From Histomonas meleagridis (lineage: Eukaryota; Parabasalia; Tritrichomonadida; Dientamoebidae), in contig WSYJ01000009.1 of NCBI GenBank assembly GCA_020186115.1, positions 310,001 to 374,000 on the forward strand: 64,000 nucleotides of DNA, in the 5' to 3' direction. The translations under genes and the position numbers were made by a program. Under the pieces are notes generated by a model. The model worked only from the letters and a program-made list of their open reading frames with translations, made no database searches and had not been told where the DNA came from. Positions 37,393 to 64,000 of this stretch are shown here, in pieces. Within the stretch, counting starts at the first letter, position 1. Each line of letters begins with the position of its first letter.

Positions 37393-37893
37393 TGACAAAT
37401 TCTTACAATTATTATATTACATCATTATATTTGAGGGTTTTTTTATGATATTTTTCAGGGACTAGATTTAGGTCAAAATGTGTTAATTATATCTATCACT
37501 CCACACATTCATTAACTGTGCAAAATGTCATCCATCTTCCGAGGTTGTGCTTGAAAAAGTAAAAATTTTGATATCATGTTACAACAATTATTATATTTAA
37601 ATTCCAATTTTCGTTTGTTTAATAATGTTTTAGGAAACGATTTATGTAGAGAAACATTTCAAACTACTACAAAACCATTAACTTATGGTATTTTATTGAT
37701 ACCAAATATAAAAAGCCAAATATCATATTTTAAAAATATATATACTAAATATTTTTATTCGAGATTTTTGTTTGTTTCTAATTTTATAAGTTTCCCAAAA
37801 AAATTTGGATTATTATTTCTAATTCTTATTTATAATTTTCTTACCAAATATATACCAAATAAAAGGAAAGATGATTTTAAATATATTTCGTTA

Positions 37894-39477
37894 ATGTTTA
37901 TTTTATTTATGATAAATTCATTTCAACTTTCTTATGTTGAACCAAGTAATACATTAATATTAAATAATGCTCTTGATTTTTCAAGTATTTACAAAGATTA
38001 TCAAAATTTTGCACAAAATTTAATCATTGAAGGAATCACCACGATACCAGATGGTGCTTTTGCTGATTGGATTATGTTATATTCTGTTAAAGTTGGCAAT
38101 GTGGTTTATACAGTTGAACAAAATGCGTTTGCAAGGTGTTCTAAATTAGAAATTGTTATATTTGAAGAAGATCTTAAAACAATTGGTAATTATGTATTTC
38201 AAAATTGTATTAATTTAATTAATATAACAATTCCAAAATCAGTTGAATCAATATCATTAAACCCTTTTTTGAATTGTTCAGGACTTCAATTTATTGAAGT
38301 TTCCAATGAAAATTTATATTATTCCAATTATGAAAATGATGGAATTTTATATGATAAAAATATAACAAAATTAATTAGTTATCCTCCAGCTAATTTAACA
38401 AATTTGCTTACAATATCAAAAACAGTTATATCAATCGAACAAAGAGCAGTTCAAATATGTAACAATTTAATAACAGTTATCATTGGAGAAAATGTTAAAA
38501 CAATTGGAGCATTTGCATTTTATTCATGTGGCAATTTAAGTACAATTATTATTGGACAAAATGTTGTATCAATTTTTGATTTTGCTTTTTCTTATTGTAA
38601 TTCACTTGAATGTATATACTTTAATGGTAATAATGAACCAATAATTTTCGAAAATGTATTTTCTGATATTAATAACTTATATGTAATGGTGCCTTTAACA
38701 TATAATGAAGAAAAATTTGGTGATTTTCCTGTTATAAAGGGAACAACAATCGAAGAATGCATTTTACCAACATATATATTTTTTCAATCTTATACATTCA
38801 CTAATTCAAATACATTTATTAAATCAAAATCATTTACTAATTCAAATACATTTGATAAAACAAATACACTCACTATATCAAATGCATTTACAAATTCAAA
38901 TACATTTGCCAAATCAAACGAATTTACTAAATCAAACACATGTACTAAATCAAGTACATATTCGCAATACAATGTCAATACTCAATTGCTTTCGAATGCA
39001 ATATTAATTAATACGTATACGTTAACTTGTTCATTATTATTTTCATATTTTCCTTCGATAATAAATTTAATATATTCAAAAAGTTTTATAATTTCAAATA
39101 TTGGCACAACAAATACATATATTCAAACTATGATTATTTATTATGATTATACAATTGTTATTTATTCATTTTATCAAAGTTATTATTATAATTATTTCTC
39201 AATTTATTTTCTAAATGAATCACAGCCAAATAATGACAAAACGATTATCATCATAATTTGTGTTATAATTATAGTTATTATAATTGTGGTTTTACTTGTT
39301 ATTGTTTTTATTAAAATTTCCAAAAAGAAGCAAAACAAAAAAGAAGAAACAAGTAATACAGAGCCAAATGAAACTGAAACAATGAATACATTCCTAACAG
39401 GATTTTCTACCAAAAATATTGCAGAAGACCCTTTTGCAATTGATTTCAAAGAAGAAAAATTTGATGTTCAGATATAA
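37894..39477 (+). CDS. BspA-like LRR surface protein with hexapeptide stalk and membrane anchor
   Basis: From ATG 37894 the protein has 527 residues: a signal peptide (MFILFMINSFQLSY), about ten LRR_5 units (for example TTIPDGAFADWI, AFARCSKLEIVIF, VKTIGAFAFYSCGNL), ten hexapeptide units of the form xF(T/N/K)xSN (38794-38973), and a Tyr/Ile-rich region (YYDYTIVIYSFYQSYYY). A strong transmembrane helix (IIIIICVIIIVIIIVVLLV) and a cytoplasmic tail of about 60 residues, Lys-rich then acidic (ending KEEKFDVQI), complete it. The frame is also open for 106 codons upstream (to ATG 37576), but those residues precede the signal peptide, so I prefer the internal ATG. Likely a surface adhesin; the stalk would hold the LRR head away from the membrane. 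Confidence 0.85.
   Translation: MFILFMINSFQLSYVEPSNTLILNNALDFSSIYKDYQNFAQNLIIEGITTIPDGAFADWIMLYSVKVGNVVYTVEQNAFARCSKLEIVIFEEDLKTIGNYVFQNCINLINITIPKSVESISLNPFLNCSGLQFIEVSNENLYYSNYENDGILYDKNITKLISYPPANLTNLLTISKTVISIEQRAVQICNNLITVIIGENVKTIGAFAFYSCGNLSTIIIGQNVVSIFDFAFSYCNSLECIYFNGNNEPIIFENVFSDINNLYVMVPLTYNEEKFGDFPVIKGTTIEECILPTYIFFQSYTFTNSNTFIKSKSFTNSNTFDKTNTLTISNAFTNSNTFAKSNEFTKSNTCTKSSTYSQYNVNTQLLSNAILINTYTLTCSLLFSYFPSIINLIYSKSFIISNIGTTNTYIQTMIIYYDYTIVIYSFYQSYYYNYFSIYFLNESQPNNDKTIIIIICVIIIVIIIVVLLVIVFIKISKKKQNKKEETSNTEPNETETMNTFLTGFSTKNIAEDPFAIDFKEEKFDVQI
38794..38973 (+). repeat. 18-bp / hexapeptide array (10 units)
   Basis: Ten consecutive six-residue units such as TFTNSN, SFTNSN, AFTNSN, TFAKSN and EFTKSN. 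Same unit type as the array at 63532-63801. Confidence 0.9.
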
Positions 39478-42936: not shown

Positions 42937-45900
42937 TTATAATTCAGTATTTTCTTCTGTCTTTTCTTCATTTGGATTTTCATTTTCGTTTTCTTCATTT
43001 TGAATTATTTCTTCTGTATTTTCCTTGCTTTGCATGTTTTCTTCTGTCTTTTCTTCATTTGGATTTTCATTTTCGTTTTCTTCATTTTGAATCATTTCCT
43101 CTTTGTTTTCTTCTGTCTTTTCTTCATTGGCATTTTCATTTTCGTTTTCTTCATTTTGAATTATTTCCTCTGTATTTTCCTTGCTTTGCATGTTTTCTTC
43201 TGTCTTTTCTTCATTTGGATTTTCATTTTCGTTTTCTTCATTTTGAATCATTTCCTCTTTGTTTTCTTCTGTCTTTTCTTCATTGGCATTTTCATTTTCG
43301 TTTTCTTCATTTTGAATTATTTCCTCTGTATTTTCCTTGCTTTGCATGTTTTCTTCTGTCTTTTCTTCATTTGGATTTTCATTTTCGTTTTCTTCATTTT
43401 GAATTATTTCTTCTGTCTTTTCTTCATTGGCATTTTCATTTTCGTTTTCTTCATTTTGAATTATTTCTTCTGTCTTTTCTTCATTGGCATTTTCATTTTC
43501 GTTTTCTTCATTTTGAATTATTTCTTCTGTCTTTTCTTCTGTTTCTTCTATATTTTCTTCAGTTTTTTCTTCCTTTGTATTATTATTTTCTTCATTGGGA
43601 TTTTCATTTTCTTTGTTTTCTTCTGTTTTTTCTTCCTTTGTGTTTTCATTTTCTTGATTTTCTTCGTTTGTATTTTCATTTTCTTTATTTTCTTCTGTTT
43701 TTTCTTCATTTTCTTTGATTTCTTCATTTTGAATTATTTCTTCTTTGTTTTCTTGATGATTTTCTTCATTGATATTTTCATTTTCGATTATTTCTTCTGT
43801 TTTTTCTTCATTGACATTTTCATTTTGCATATTTTCTTCTTTATTTTCTTCATTTTGTATTATTTCTTCTGTCTTTTCTTCATTTGTATTATTATTATTT
43901 TCTTCATTTTGTATTATTTCTTCTGTCTTTTCTTCATTTGTATTATTATTATTTTCTTCATTTTCTTCGTTTGTATTATTATTTTCTTCAGTTTTTTCTT
44001 CGTTTGTATTATTATTATTTTCTTCATTTTCATTTTGCATATTTTCTTCTTTATTTTCTTCATTTTGTATTATTTCTTCTGTCTTTTCTTCGTTTGCATT
44101 AACATTTTCTTTGTTTTCTTCTGTTTTTTCTTCATTTTCTATATTTTCTTCAGTTTTGGCTTCGTTTGTATTATTATTATTTTCTTCATTTTCATTTTGC
44201 ATATTTTCTTCTTTATTTTCTTCGTTTGTATTATTGTTATTTTCTTCATTTTGTATTATTTCTTCTGTCTTTTCTTCGTTTGTATTATTATTATTTTCTT
44301 CATTGACATTTTCATTTTCTATGTTTTCTTCTGCTTTTTCTTCATTTGTATTCTCATTTTGTATATTTTCCTCTTTGTTTTCTTCCTTAATTTGCTTATT
44401 TTGTATGTTTTCTTCATTAACATTTTCGTTTTGAACAATTTCTTCATTTTCTACATTTTCATTTTTGTTTTCTTCATCTTTTATGTTTTCATCTTTCCTT
44501 TCTTCATTGGCAATTTCCTTTTCTTTATTTTGATTTATTTCTTCAGACTTTTCTTCATTTGTATTATCATTTTGCATGTTTTCCTCTTTGTTTTCTTCAT
44601 GATTTCCTTCATTTGGAATCACTTCTTCTTTATTTTCTTCTTTTTGTATTGTTTCTTCTGATTTTTCTTCATTTTCATTCTCATTCTTCGTATCTTCATT
44701 TTGCATAATTTCTTCTTTACTTTCTTCGTTATTTGAGTTTTCTTCATTTGACTTTATTTCAGTTTCTTCATTTTGTATTATGACTTCTCTATCCTTTTCA
44801 TTAGCATTTTCTGCATTTTCTTCATTTTGCACAAATTCTTCTTTACTTTCTTCATTAATATTTTCGTTTTGAATGTTTTCATCAGTTTTTTCTTCATTAT
44901 ATTCATTCATCTTTATTTCATTATCATCATTTGATGTCTCTTTCTCTTTTTCGTCACTTGATTCTGAATGCTTGTCTTCGTTTATCTTGATTTCTTCTGT
45001 TTCTTTCTCTTTTTCGTCACTTGACTCTGAATGTTTATCTTCGTTTATCTTGATTTCTCCTTCCACATCACTCGATGTTTCCTTATCGTTTATCTTTTTT
45101 TCTTCTTCTTTATTGATTTCTTCTGTTTCTTTCTCTTTTTCACTACTTGAATCTGAATGTTTATCTTCGTTTATCTTTATTTCTACTTCGTCATCACTCG
45201 ATGTTTCCTTATCATTTATTTTGATTTCTTCTGTTTCTTTCTCTTTTTCGTCACTTGAATCTGAATGTTTGTCTTCGTTTATCTTTATTTCATTATCTTC
45301 ATCACTTAATTCTTGTTCTTTGTCGTTTATCTTTATTTCTACTTCATCATCACTTAATTCTTGTTCTTTATCATTTATCTTTATTTCTTCTGTTTCTTTC
45401 TCCTTTTCGCTACTTGAATCTGAATGTTTATCTTCGTTTATCTTTATTTCATTATCTTCATCACTTAATTCTTGTTCTTTATCGTTTATCTTTATTTCTA
45501 ATTCGTCATCACTCGATGTCTCTTTATCATTTATCTTTATTTCTTCTGTTTCTTTCTCCTTTTCGCGACTTGAATCTGAATGTTTATCTTCGTTTATCTT
45601 CAATTCAACTTCTTCATCACTTGTTTGCTCTTTATCATTTATCTTTACTTCAGCTTCTTCTTCATTTTGTTCCACTTCTTCTTTCTCCTTTTCGCTACTT
45701 GAATCTGATTGCTTTTCTTCGTTTATCTTCATTTCAACTTCATCGTCACTTGAATTTGATTCTTTCTCTTCGTCGCTTGATGTTCCACTTCTATTCTTTT
45801 CTTCTTTCTCTTTCTCTGCGCCCACATTACCCCAGCTCACTTTCATTCTTTCTCTTCCTCCTCCTTCATTTACAGAATCGCTATTTTCATCATCAAATTC

Positions 45901-47013
45901 AATTTTTGTACAAAATCCGAATTTGTTTGGCTCTGATCTTCTTTTCACGTTTAATCTTTTCTTTGGCTTTTGTTTTCTCGTTGGCGATTCAACATTTATA
46001 GGTATCTTTGATTCGCGTTTCGGCGATGTCCTCTTTAAAGGCGATTGTACAACAGCACCTGCAGTAGCAAATAACTCTTTAACAGTTACATGTCGTCTAT
46101 CAATTGAATCACGCGCGTTATCGATTTCTTCTCTATAAGATTGAAGATTTTGGATATCGCCTGAAATTGATGATCGGTCATCTTGTGATGTAAAGGAAAT
46201 AGCACTTGTTTCGAAGTCAGAGGACGTACTCGAGCTGTCAAAGTTCAGTGGAAGTTTGGAAATTTCTTCATCAATTTGTGATTGTGTCTTGGAGAGGAAT
46301 TTCTCTTCGTCGCGGAGATTAGTATCAAATGCCTTCTTGAATGGAGATGATGTTGGACTGCTATGTTTCGCCTTTTGTTTACTTTCGGAATTTGGATAAT
46401 AATTAAAGAGATCTAGTTCAGGTTTATCAATGGCTTCTTGAACAGGAACCTTTGGAAGTGGCTTCTTCAATTTTATGGAGGCATTGTTTAATTCTTGAGC
46501 TAGAGATTTGATCATTACTAATGTTTGTTGAGCTCGTAATTTGACAAATCCTGATGTGGTGAATTTTATTAGATCACTTGAATCAAGTGATATTGTTTCA
46601 GACCCGCGAGTTAAAGTGACTGGATTGATTTTTGTGAGTAAATAACCATCTAGAAGATATGGATTAACCGTGAGTAATAATTTCTTGGATTGCTCAACTT
46701 CTTTTTGGGTAACTGCTTTATCATCTATAATTTTGATATTGGTTCCAATTGTAATAAGAAGCATAATTCGATAGTAGGTAAAATATGTTAATGGAGATTG
46801 ACCAAGAGAAATACTAGTAATACTTGAGTGAAACTGAACACCTCTAAGATCGGATATAAGAGTATTCCTTGCGTCAACTGATGTAAGTTTTGGATAATTC
46901 TTTATTAACTGGAGGGAATCACATTGTGAATCAGAAATATCCAAAAATGTGGTTGTTGTAGGAATTGTGGATTCAGATATTGCTCTTCTTGATTGGGTCT
47001 TTCTGTGTTTCAT
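42937..47013 (-). CDS. LRR protein with very long Glu/Lys/Asn repeat tail
   Basis: A 1358-residue protein. Residues about 20-115 look like a U2A'/SDS22-type LRR cap (DSLQLIKNYPKLTSVDARNT, then ISDLRGVQFHSSITSISLG). A Ser/Pro-rich basic linker follows to about 390. The rest is low-complexity repeat. First come units with EIKINEDKHSDSSSEKEKE and KINDKEQELSDE, then Asn/Glu units (IIQNEENENENANEEKTEE). The last part is a 156-base tandem repeat. The tail is strongly acidic and presumably extended. Some cytoskeletal LRR proteins of flagellates have the same head-and-tail plan, but I cannot name an orthologue. A perfect M3 box (AACGGTTA, 47064-47071) lies about 50 bases before the ATG; the stop is TAAA. 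Confidence 0.8.
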   Translation of the reverse strand: MKHRKTQSRRAISESTIPTTTTFLDISDSQCDSLQLIKNYPKLTSVDARNTLISDLRGVQFHSSITSISLGQSPLTYFTYYRIMLLITIGTNIKIIDDKAVTQKEVEQSKKLLLTVNPYLLDGYLLTKINPVTLTRGSETISLDSSDLIKFTTSGFVKLRAQQTLVMIKSLAQELNNASIKLKKPLPKVPVQEAIDKPELDLFNYYPNSESKQKAKHSSPTSSPFKKAFDTNLRDEEKFLSKTQSQIDEEISKLPLNFDSSSTSSDFETSAISFTSQDDRSSISGDIQNLQSYREEIDNARDSIDRRHVTVKELFATAGAVVQSPLKRTSPKRESKIPINVESPTRKQKPKKRLNVKRRSEPNKFGFCTKIEFDDENSDSVNEGGGRERMKVSWGNVGAEKEKEEKNRSGTSSDEEKESNSSDDEVEMKINEEKQSDSSSEKEKEEVEQNEEEAEVKINDKEQTSDEEVELKINEDKHSDSSREKEKETEEIKINDKETSSDDELEIKINDKEQELSDEDNEIKINEDKHSDSSSEKEKETEEIKINDKEQELSDDEVEIKINDKEQELSDEDNEIKINEDKHSDSSDEKEKETEEIKINDKETSSDDEVEIKINEDKHSDSSSEKEKETEEINKEEEKKINDKETSSDVEGEIKINEDKHSESSDEKEKETEEIKINEDKHSESSDEKEKETSNDDNEIKMNEYNEEKTDENIQNENINEESKEEFVQNEENAENANEKDREVIIQNEETEIKSNEENSNNEESKEEIMQNEDTKNENENEEKSEETIQKEENKEEVIPNEGNHEENKEENMQNDNTNEEKSEEINQNKEKEIANEERKDENIKDEENKNENVENEEIVQNENVNEENIQNKQIKEENKEENIQNENTNEEKAEENIENENVNEENNNNTNEEKTEEIIQNEENNNNTNEENKEENMQNENEENNNNTNEAKTEENIENEEKTEENKENVNANEEKTEEIIQNEENKEENMQNENEENNNNTNEEKTEENNNTNEENEENNNNTNEEKTEEIIQNEENNNNTNEEKTEEIIQNEENKEENMQNENVNEEKTEEIIENENINEENHQENKEEIIQNEEIKENEEKTEENKENENTNEENQENENTKEEKTEENKENENPNEENNNTKEEKTEENIEETEEKTEEIIQNEENENENANEEKTEEIIQNEENENENANEEKTEEIIQNEENENENPNEEKTEENMQSKENTEEIIQNEENENENANEEKTEENKEEMIQNEENENENPNEEKTEENMQSKENTEEIIQNEENENENANEEKTEENKEEMIQNEENENENPNEEKTEENMQSKENTEEIIQNEENENENPNEEKTEENTEL
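42940..43420 (-). repeat. 156-bp tandem repeat (three copies) at the 3' end of the LRR gene
   Basis: The landmark TTGCTTTGCA occurs at 43025, 43181 and 43337, exactly 156 bases apart, and the intervening sequence is nearly identical. The unit encodes 52 residues (MQSKENTEEIIQNEE through EEKTEEN). Shorter 57-base units (19 residues) precede it at about 43390-43530. Confidence 0.9.
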
Positions 47014-62613: not shown

Positions 62614-64000
62614 ATGTTTCTGGTCTTATTAACGAATATCATGTCCGCCCATAGTCTAGAAATAGACCCATTATCGAAATTATTGGCAGATATTCACTTG
62701 GGTATAATGAGACTATCATATTACATCACAATACCCCCAGAACCCGCAGGCCCAAGCACAGGCGATTCGGAAGGCTGGACCGATATACGAGAAGAAATAT
62801 CAAAAGCATCAGATGGGGAGCTTATAATGATAAGCCATTTACGATATAATTTATTACTTTCATCTATCGAATCATGGGAGCTTAATGACATAATTGGAGT
62901 GTCAGTAATTCATAATGGCACTCACATATATCAGAATATTCCTTATACTCAGACCAACGGTTCGTTTTACCCAGATACGACGATGTACACGGATTTTCCG
63001 ATCGTCAATTTAATATCTTATTATCCTTTCGATTATTCTTATACTGTTTTAAAGAAAGACACAAGCAAGCAAAATTTAACAACTCAGAAAGAAATGGATT
63101 TCATGTTTGCAAGCAGCGAAAATGTTACGATTCCACGTGTTGGTGCAGATCCTGTATATGAACTCTATTTCATACATAAAATGTCATATTTCTATATGAC
63201 TATACATCTAAACACTGAAAGGAATCAATCAAACATTTCATTGTTTATCAATGGGTTAAAACATAACGGAACATTTAGCACATTAAATGGTACGGTATTC
63301 ATCGATGATGACGCGCAACCACTTAATAATTGGAATATTACAAATCTTTGCAATATGAGTAACTCTGAAACAATTCAATGTAAAATGATATTATTTCCAC
63401 AAATGCTTAATAACGATATTGAAATATCAATTTTTAATGATGAATTTATATATAACGAAACAATTCAACAGGAAGAACTCAAATCAGGATATTCATATTC
63501 TTGCGAATTATATGTTAATATTAGTACAGCAACATTTACACAAAGTAATACATTCACACAATCAAATGAATTTACACAAAGTAATATTTTTACAAAAAGT
63601 AATACATTCACACAATCAAATGAATTTACACAAAGTAATAAATTTACAAAAAGTGATACATTTACACAATCAAACACATTCTCTAATTCCAACACATTGA
63701 TACAAAGTAATGAATTTACTCGATCAAATACATTTTCTATTTCAAATACATTGATACAAAGTAATAAATTTATCCAAACAAATACATTTTCTATTGCGAA
63801 TACATTTTATGTAAATTTAACATATTCTTATGCATTAACATATAATTTTATTATTACCGAAACATATATCATTCATAATTCATTTGTAACGAACACATAT
63901 TCTTTAACTTTATTAAATTCGACAAATGTATATACAAACATTAATTATATTTATTATGAATATACAATTGTTCAATACACATTTTCTTATTCATATTATT
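62614..64000 (+). CDS. Fimbrillin-like surface protein with hexapeptide stalk (3' partial)
   Basis: The frame runs from ATG 62614 to the window end (462 codons, no stop). A signal peptide (MFLVLLTNIMSAHS) is followed by an ectodomain of about 290 residues with the layout of Bacteroidetes fimbrillin/Mfa-like domains: SWELNDIIGVSVIHNG, NIPYTQTNGSFYP, FPIVNLISYYPF, QKEMDFMFASS, YELYFIHKMSYFYMTIHL, ILFPQMLNNDIEISIF and LKSGYSYSCELYVNI. Then come 15 hexapeptide units xF(T/S)xSN (from residue 307) and a Tyr-rich region (YYEYTIVQYTFSYSYY) that resembles the region after the hexapeptides in the gene at 37894. A membrane anchor is expected beyond the window. Many N-glycosylation sequons are present. 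Likely a surface adhesin with a bacterial-type head. Confidence 0.75.
   Translation, partial: MFLVLLTNIMSAHSLEIDPLSKLLADIHLGIMRLSYYITIPPEPAGPSTGDSEGWTDIREEISKASDGELIMISHLRYNLLLSSIESWELNDIIGVSVIHNGTHIYQNIPYTQTNGSFYPDTTMYTDFPIVNLISYYPFDYSYTVLKKDTSKQNLTTQKEMDFMFASSENVTIPRVGADPVYELYFIHKMSYFYMTIHLNTERNQSNISLFINGLKHNGTFSTLNGTVFIDDDAQPLNNWNITNLCNMSNSETIQCKMILFPQMLNNDIEISIFNDEFIYNETIQQEELKSGYSYSCELYVNISTATFTQSNTFTQSNEFTQSNIFTKSNTFTQSNEFTQSNKFTKSDTFTQSNTFSNSNTLIQSNEFTRSNTFSISNTLIQSNKFIQTNTFSIANTFYVNLTYSYALTYNFIITETYIIHNSFVTNTYSLTLLNSTNVYTNINYIYYEYTIVQYTFSYSYY
63532..63801 (+). repeat. 18-bp / hexapeptide array (15 units)
   Basis: Fifteen contiguous 18-base units encode TFTQSN, EFTQSN, IFTKSN, KFTKSD, TFSNSN, TLIQSN and similar. 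Blocks of two or three units are repeated nearly exactly at the DNA level, suggesting recent expansion. Confidence 0.92.

Follow-up and report, generated by a model that had tools for sequence, protein, structure and literature searches.

A fimbrillin-like head on a chassis shared with BspA-type proteins in Histomonas meleagridis

Results and Discussion

Near the end of the stretch of Histomonas meleagridis DNA that was analysed (64,000 nucleotides, hereafter the window), a gene starting at position 62614 was found that probably encodes a single-pass trichomonad surface protein, in which a head of Bacteroidota type is fused to a chassis shared with BspA-type proteins, and which belongs to an expanded family that would act in binding coupled to endocytosis. 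The predicted fold of a pilus subunit of gut Bacteroidota would thereby serve a eukaryotic parasite, in many copies, as the head of surface proteins, carried on a BspA-type anchor and tail. The features of the gene, together with those of a second window gene that shares the chassis, are given in Table 1.

Table 1. Features of the fimbrillin-headed gene and of the BspA-type gene (window positions, except where prefixed by the contig label C8)
Feature	Position	Strand	Basis or remark
ATG and probable signal peptide, residues 1-15, MFLVLLTNIMSAHSL	62614..62658	+	hydrophobic start by inspection and crude hydropathy scan
N-terminal extension of divergent sequence (residues 16-85), where the gene is richest in GC	62659..62868	+	outside the Pfam match
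Fimbrillin-like head, Mfa_like_1, residues 86-302	62869..63519	+	Pfam E 2.8e-22; PDB 3ufi profile match
Stalk, six-residue repeats of TFTQSN type	63532..63806	+	Tandem Repeats Finder
Start of the chassis in the window: Y-rich membrane-proximal part	63814..64000	+
Predicted transmembrane helix, past the window end	about C8:374081-374143	+	hydropathy
EDPFAKDF tail motif, past the window end	C8:374258-374281	+	stop ends C8:374311
BspA-type LRR_5 head, with stalk, anchor and tail of similar kind; sequence ending in AEDPFAIDFKEEKFDVQI	37576-39477	+	Pfam LRR_5 E 7.6e-31

The head is a member of the fimbrillin-like domain family

The initial annotation had recognized a fimbrillin-like ectodomain from a series of short ordered motifs. 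All of these (WELNDIIGV, YTQTNGSF, ISYYPF, QKEMDFMFA, LFPQ and SGYSYSCEL) were present in the ORF at 62614, and all fell within one match to the Pfam family Mfa_like_1 (PF13149), which exceeded the cut-off of 27 bits with a score of 80.4 (E 2.8e-22) and covered profile positions 6-232 of 246. The proposed span of the domain, from residue 15 onward, was too wide at its beginning; the match starts near residue 86, and residues 16-85 form a divergent extension. When the window head alone was compared with PDB, one solved structure, 3ufi, was matched (E 1e-6). A profile built from 22 heads matched 3ufi at E 1.8e-31, spanning positions 10-238 of 239, and also matched 4k4k (4.1e-20), 3t2l (6.4e-8) and 4eps (9.2e-7), with a weak match to 3sy6 (0.0088). 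Moreover, when the head-family profile was compared with a profile of six bacterial fimbrillin proteins, a probability of 100 and an E of 3.6e-42 were obtained. The Mfa_like_1 match goes beyond chance, because only one of 14 control genomes, that of Bacteroides ihuae, was matched. An NCBIfam scan of the window head matched no fimbrillin model. These combined profile comparisons confirm the window head as a member of the fimbrillin-like (Mfa_like_1) domain family, and the matches to solved structures predict for it the transthyretin-like fimbrillin fold.

The window head is only about 21-27% identical to bacterial heads, a level that would fit a beta-sandwich of the host that had drifted toward fimbrillin likeness. 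However, the likeness spans the whole domain with the motifs in order, and identity reaches 44% over part of the head of copy L012, which is too high for such convergence; we therefore regard it as highly improbable. Membership in the bacterial domain family is the reading followed below.

The 462-residue ORF as cut by the window end, which includes the stalk, returned no family in the same Pfam scan. Among ten longer ORFs of the family, Mfa_like_1 was found in six and was missed in L001, L003, L014 and L017; L014 trimmed after its head still gave no Mfa_like_1 match in a Pfam scan. In the profile search of the genome contigs, the window head scored 80 bits and L003 and L014 scored 95 bits each; L017 was found by tblastn only. 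Because the window head, L003 and L014 all cleared the cut-off by a wide margin in the genome search, we infer that the missing full-length matches reflect the composition filter of HMMER, triggered by the sequence repeats. Stalk repeats would thus mask the domain in full-length scans (four of ten ORFs), and similar heads may be missed elsewhere.

Layout of the gene at 62614

The full ORF, counted from the ATG, comprises 565 codons (C8:372614-374311) and ends at window coordinate 64311, 311 bases beyond the window. The head domain contains 12 NxS/T sequons. Tandem Repeats Finder resolved the stalk into repeats of period 18 (14.3 copies at 63532-63789) and of period 54 (up to 63806). The helix that precedes the tail is strongly hydrophobic, and the tail itself is about 55 residues long, with EDPFAKDF nine residues from the C-terminal end.

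A family of fimbrillin-headed proteins in the genome

The genome searched comprised 43,276,120 bases in 121 contigs. The Mfa_like_1 profile gave 26 matches, 25 of them over the cut-off, and tblastn found 24 places, six of which were outside the Pfam list. The copies are spread over many long contigs. Two of the Pfam rows, at C48:27165-27867, represent one broken gene in two frames, and the copy at C48:291466 has an internal stop (TGA). A group of near-identical fimbrillin genes was also observed at C48:17033-40543, C48:291466 and C12:158828.

Among the Histomonas ORFs longer than 300 residues, the tail motif was present in 24 of 26, although two of these (L010 and L053) have incomplete heads; open frames running through a complete head to the tail numbered 22. 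A single C-terminal helix, a short motif-bearing tail and a head of extracellular type were likewise common to 24 of the 26 ORFs and to P0001, a protein of 559 residues outside this genome, encoded on a 2,009-base contig and having the same architecture. Over most of its length, P0001 shares no more than 38-40% identity with the Histomonas copies. Stalk length varied among the copies from near zero to more than 20 repeats.

By a crude rule (Met followed by a hydrophobic stretch), start codons were lacking in three of 22 copies (L003, L021 and L039). The 5' ends of L003, L005, L021 and L039 have signal-like hydrophobic starts and no clear upstream in-frame ATG; these starts may be broken or unusual, or a short exon may have been missed. 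No intron consensus of trichomonad type was found near the starts examined, which leaves the absent Met unexplained. The 40 nt upstream of the start contained a TCAYTW initiator in none of 19 genes, with 1.8 expected by shuffling.

A protein search for relatives in other species returned a single bacterial protein, P0009; the same search also missed known relatives, so it is a weak test of absence from other trichomonads. Three weak matches came from phage sequences, all of them records of faecal phages that lack annotation.

BspA-type LRR proteins have the same chassis

A query of 165 residues from the C-terminus of the window protein matched at least 150 places in the genome (150 of 747 candidates scored), and the C-terminus of a second copy likewise matched at least 150 places (150 of 793 candidates scored). 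Six ORFs without a fimbrillin head were taken from these chassis matches, and all six carried BspA-type LRR_5 heads. A seventh LRR_5-headed chassis protein is encoded in the window, about 23 kb upstream of the fimbrillin gene, with its tail motif at C8:349424-349447 (window 39424-39447). Seven chassis heads besides the fimbrillin ones were classified in all, every one of them LRR_5; the remaining chassis proteins may carry further head types. As a DNA pattern, [ED]DPFAxDF occurred at 358 sites in the genome, and a reversed control pattern occurred at none. Chlam_PMP heads gave no matches in the genome with a model of a 19-position repeat, which makes this a weak test. The shared C-terminal module was also observed at G000:C116:430867-431343 (minus strand), within an open frame of 23,065 residues, which may encode a giant surface protein or may be a long frame of repeats.

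The trichomonad BspA-like (TpLRR, LRR_5) proteins of this genome, including that of the window, thus share with the fimbrillin-headed proteins their type of stalk, the membrane-proximal part, the helix and the DPF tail, but their head is an LRR solenoid and the fimbrillin domain is absent. The proposal that fimbrillin would be a second family of bacterial-like heads beside BspA was borne out, with both heads on one chassis.

That unrelated heads can be joined to a common trichomonad helix and tail is already known in principle. In the portions available of PMC11288935, PMC6701047 and PMC2843621, the BspA-, Pmp- and BAP-like adhesins of Trichomonas are likewise described as having unrelated extracellular heads with a common helix and tail; the accessible text of PMC11288935 explains the helix-tail units common to BspA, Pmp and BAP heads by gene fusion, and that of PMC2843621 reports [DE]D[PS]FA tails in 15 TvBspA proteins of T. 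vaginalis. According to the same partial sources, many of the Trichomonas adhesins with shared tails carry NPx[YF], whereas the tail of the window gene has no visible NPx[YF]. A fimbrillin head is absent from the accounts of Trichomonas adhesins in the available parts of PMC11288935, PMC2843621 and PMC6701047. Moreover, a search of the open-licence literature, main texts only, found neither a fimbrillin head in trichomonads nor a fimbrillin domain in any eukaryote. Within the literature searched, what is new here is a fimbrillin head on a known trichomonad chassis.

Origin of the head

Given that the domain family is bacterial, as the control genomes indicate, and that the parasite is cultured with bacteria, a Bacteroidota gene could have entered the assembly by contamination or misassembly. 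Several observations speak against this. Head, stalk, anchor and tail share one open frame on a contig of 557 kb, the fusion recurs in many copies on many long contigs, and the unrelated record P0001 has the same architecture; eukaryotic neighbours (SRP68, SMC, WDR3 propellers and ARM-repeat genes) are found in the window on the same contig. The nearest bacterial heads, moreover, reach an identity of only about 37-44%, and BACON, another Bacteroidota domain, had no profile matches in the genome. The published culture, as described in the available part of PMC8529796, depends on E. coli, which its authors sequenced separately. Because the fusion of head and chassis lies in a single frame across many copies, contamination is already refuted, and we consider it next to impossible.

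The phylogeny of the heads is consistent with acquisition from bacteria. In the head tree, 25 trichomonad and 49 bacterial heads were split by one branch (support 100/98), and in a second tree, computed under a mixture model with three long bacterial rows removed, 25 and 46 heads were again split by one branch (100/99). The head tree omits the partial L053 and L023, L044 (internal stop), the fragments L016, L018, L020 and L022, and those bacterial rows that were duplicates or did not reach E 1e-10 or 160 profile columns; alignment A1 omits L046 and L050 (near copies), L023 and L053. The bacterial rows were partly picked by similarity, and wider sampling could change the one-branch result. The head of P0001 nests among the Histomonas heads (100/98); this position of P0001 inside the Histomonas copies implies that the family would have diversified before those lineages parted. 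The trees support a reading in which one old bacterial transfer was followed by expansion, and the distribution of the family suggests that the direction was from bacteria to trichomonad.

The best-scoring bacterial genomes were those of an uncultured Bacteroidales MAG, Bacteroides propionicigenes and B. fluxus. Of 295 genomes from the class to which G004 belongs, one, G004 itself, matched the L012 head at E <= 1e-20. As for the donor microbiota, urogenital Bacteroidetes had been named beside those of the gut; Histomonas meleagridis is a gut parasite whose habitat is the poultry caecum, and the caecal microbiota would be the relevant one. Proteins of fimbrillin-like type (L076 and L083) were also observed in two MAGs labelled Spirochaetaceae or Spirochaetes; they may reflect either a binning error or a transfer.

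The initial annotation had seen a GC-rich first part of the gene as agreeing with lateral transfer. The enrichment itself was found, with 36% GC at 62614-63100 against 28% just upstream, but its richest part (39%, or 0.389, at 62614-62860) precedes the domain, and the domain has 31%. Across 26 copies, GC of the heads ranged from 0.255 to 0.384 and third-position GC from 0.133 to 0.318, against 28.7% for the genome. The composition of the heads is levelled to that of the host. Lateral transfer as such is consistent with both trees and draws no support from composition; a recent transfer, read from GC, was rejected, since head GC is near that of the host in the 26 copies.

Fusion history and recent evolution

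A chassis tree was computed from 26 fimbrillin-headed and seven BspA-headed rows. It contained four label changes, and a single clade was not rejected (p-AU 0.165); repeated swapping of heads is thus unsupported. The chassis of P0001, a row flagged for odd composition, grouped with the BspA protein of the window (99/96), at odds with the place of its head among the Histomonas heads.

Synonymous divergence was compared between heads and chassis in nine pairs of copies. In L021 and L039, which are neighbours on C40, head dS was 0.77 and chassis dS was 0; in L003 and L004, which are on separate contigs, the values were 0.28 and 0.03, respectively. In the latter pair the change-over lies within the head, and high identity extends downstream of the gene. 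The simplest reading of near-identical chassis with differing heads, seen in these two of nine pairs, is gene conversion or other recombination.

A multicopy family with such pairs might form a coat for antigenic variation, in which the heads would be mainly variable antigens and the chassis would merely display them. However, the contrast between head and chassis was weaker in L003/L005, L004/L005 and L043/L050 and small in L001/L002 and L007/L008, and dN/dS of the heads was 0.34-0.90 in the nine pairs, none exceeding 1. As the main function of the heads, antigenic variation appears unlikely to us, although it is compatible with an adhesin role.

Pilin features and proposed role

The domain family builds pili in Bacteroidota, and N-terminal strand-like residues seem, by eye, to be kept in some copies, so the heads might still act as fimbriae that polymerise at the parasite surface. 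By crude patterns, however, a lipobox was found in none of the 25 trichomonad rows but in 45 of the 49 bacterial rows, and a conserved Trp region just past the domain end showed the same distribution (0/25 and 45/49). With a stricter pattern for the C-terminal strand, the counts were 0/25 and 25/49. As reported in the available part of PMC5954841, assembly of P. gingivalis Mfa1 uses a lipoprotein route, and both terminal regions are needed for its polymerisation. Every copy, moreover, has its own predicted membrane anchor. By the features tested, the fimbrillin-headed proteins of Histomonas are not pilins, because their heads have neither the lipobox nor the C-terminal strand of the bacterial proteins; surface polymerisation is accordingly judged very unlikely. 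With the Mfa_like_1 proteins of Bacteroidota (3ufi, BACOVA_04980; 4k4k), they share the domain across nearly its full length, but they differ in having neither lipobox nor C-terminal strand Trp, and in bearing a transmembrane anchor of their own with a host stalk and tail.

The preferred reading, that of a bacterial head taken onto a host chassis, may be set out as follows. An ancestor would have acquired an Mfa_like_1 domain from a Bacteroidota-type bacterium, and the acquired head would have been fused to a host chassis that already bore BspA-type LRR heads. This chassis comprises a stalk of short repeats, a Y-rich membrane-proximal part, a predicted transmembrane helix and an acidic tail that contains EDPFAxDF. 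The family would then have expanded to about two dozen open copies. Host mucosa, mucus or bacteria may carry a ligand for the head, which the stalk may keep away from the membrane; the DPF tail, to judge from its motif, could recruit adaptor proteins, so that bound material or the receptor would be internalised.

An adhesin or receptor coupled to endocytosis would accordingly be the most likely role, because the tail motif resembles the DPF/DxF signals recognised by AP2 and related proteins, adaptor families are present in the genome (12 matches for the adaptin-ear family and 23 for the adaptor small chain, some of them broken) and the BspA and Pmp proteins of T. vaginalis offer parallels. In the accessible part of PMC6701047, DxF is given as an AP2 motif in BspA and Pmp tails, and expression of BspA and Pmp is reported to have raised adhesion. 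A more specific version, which we regard as improbable, holds that one endocytic chassis bears various bacterial adhesin folds and that the fimbrillin heads are turned against the bacteria from which they derive: having lost their C-terminal strand, they could take in a strand from Bacteroidota fimbriae, and prey bacteria would thereby be caught and internalised.

If the preferred reading is true, trichomonads would take up bacterial surface folds repeatedly and in a modular way, onto a defined acceptor. The fimbrillin-headed proteins would also be candidate surface antigens and adhesins of a poultry pathogen for which, according to the available text of PMC8529796, neither treatment nor prophylaxis exists.

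Elsewhere in the window, at 42937-47013 on the minus strand, an acidic, repeat-rich protein of 1358 residues is encoded, with E/N-rich arrays and a strong strand skew.
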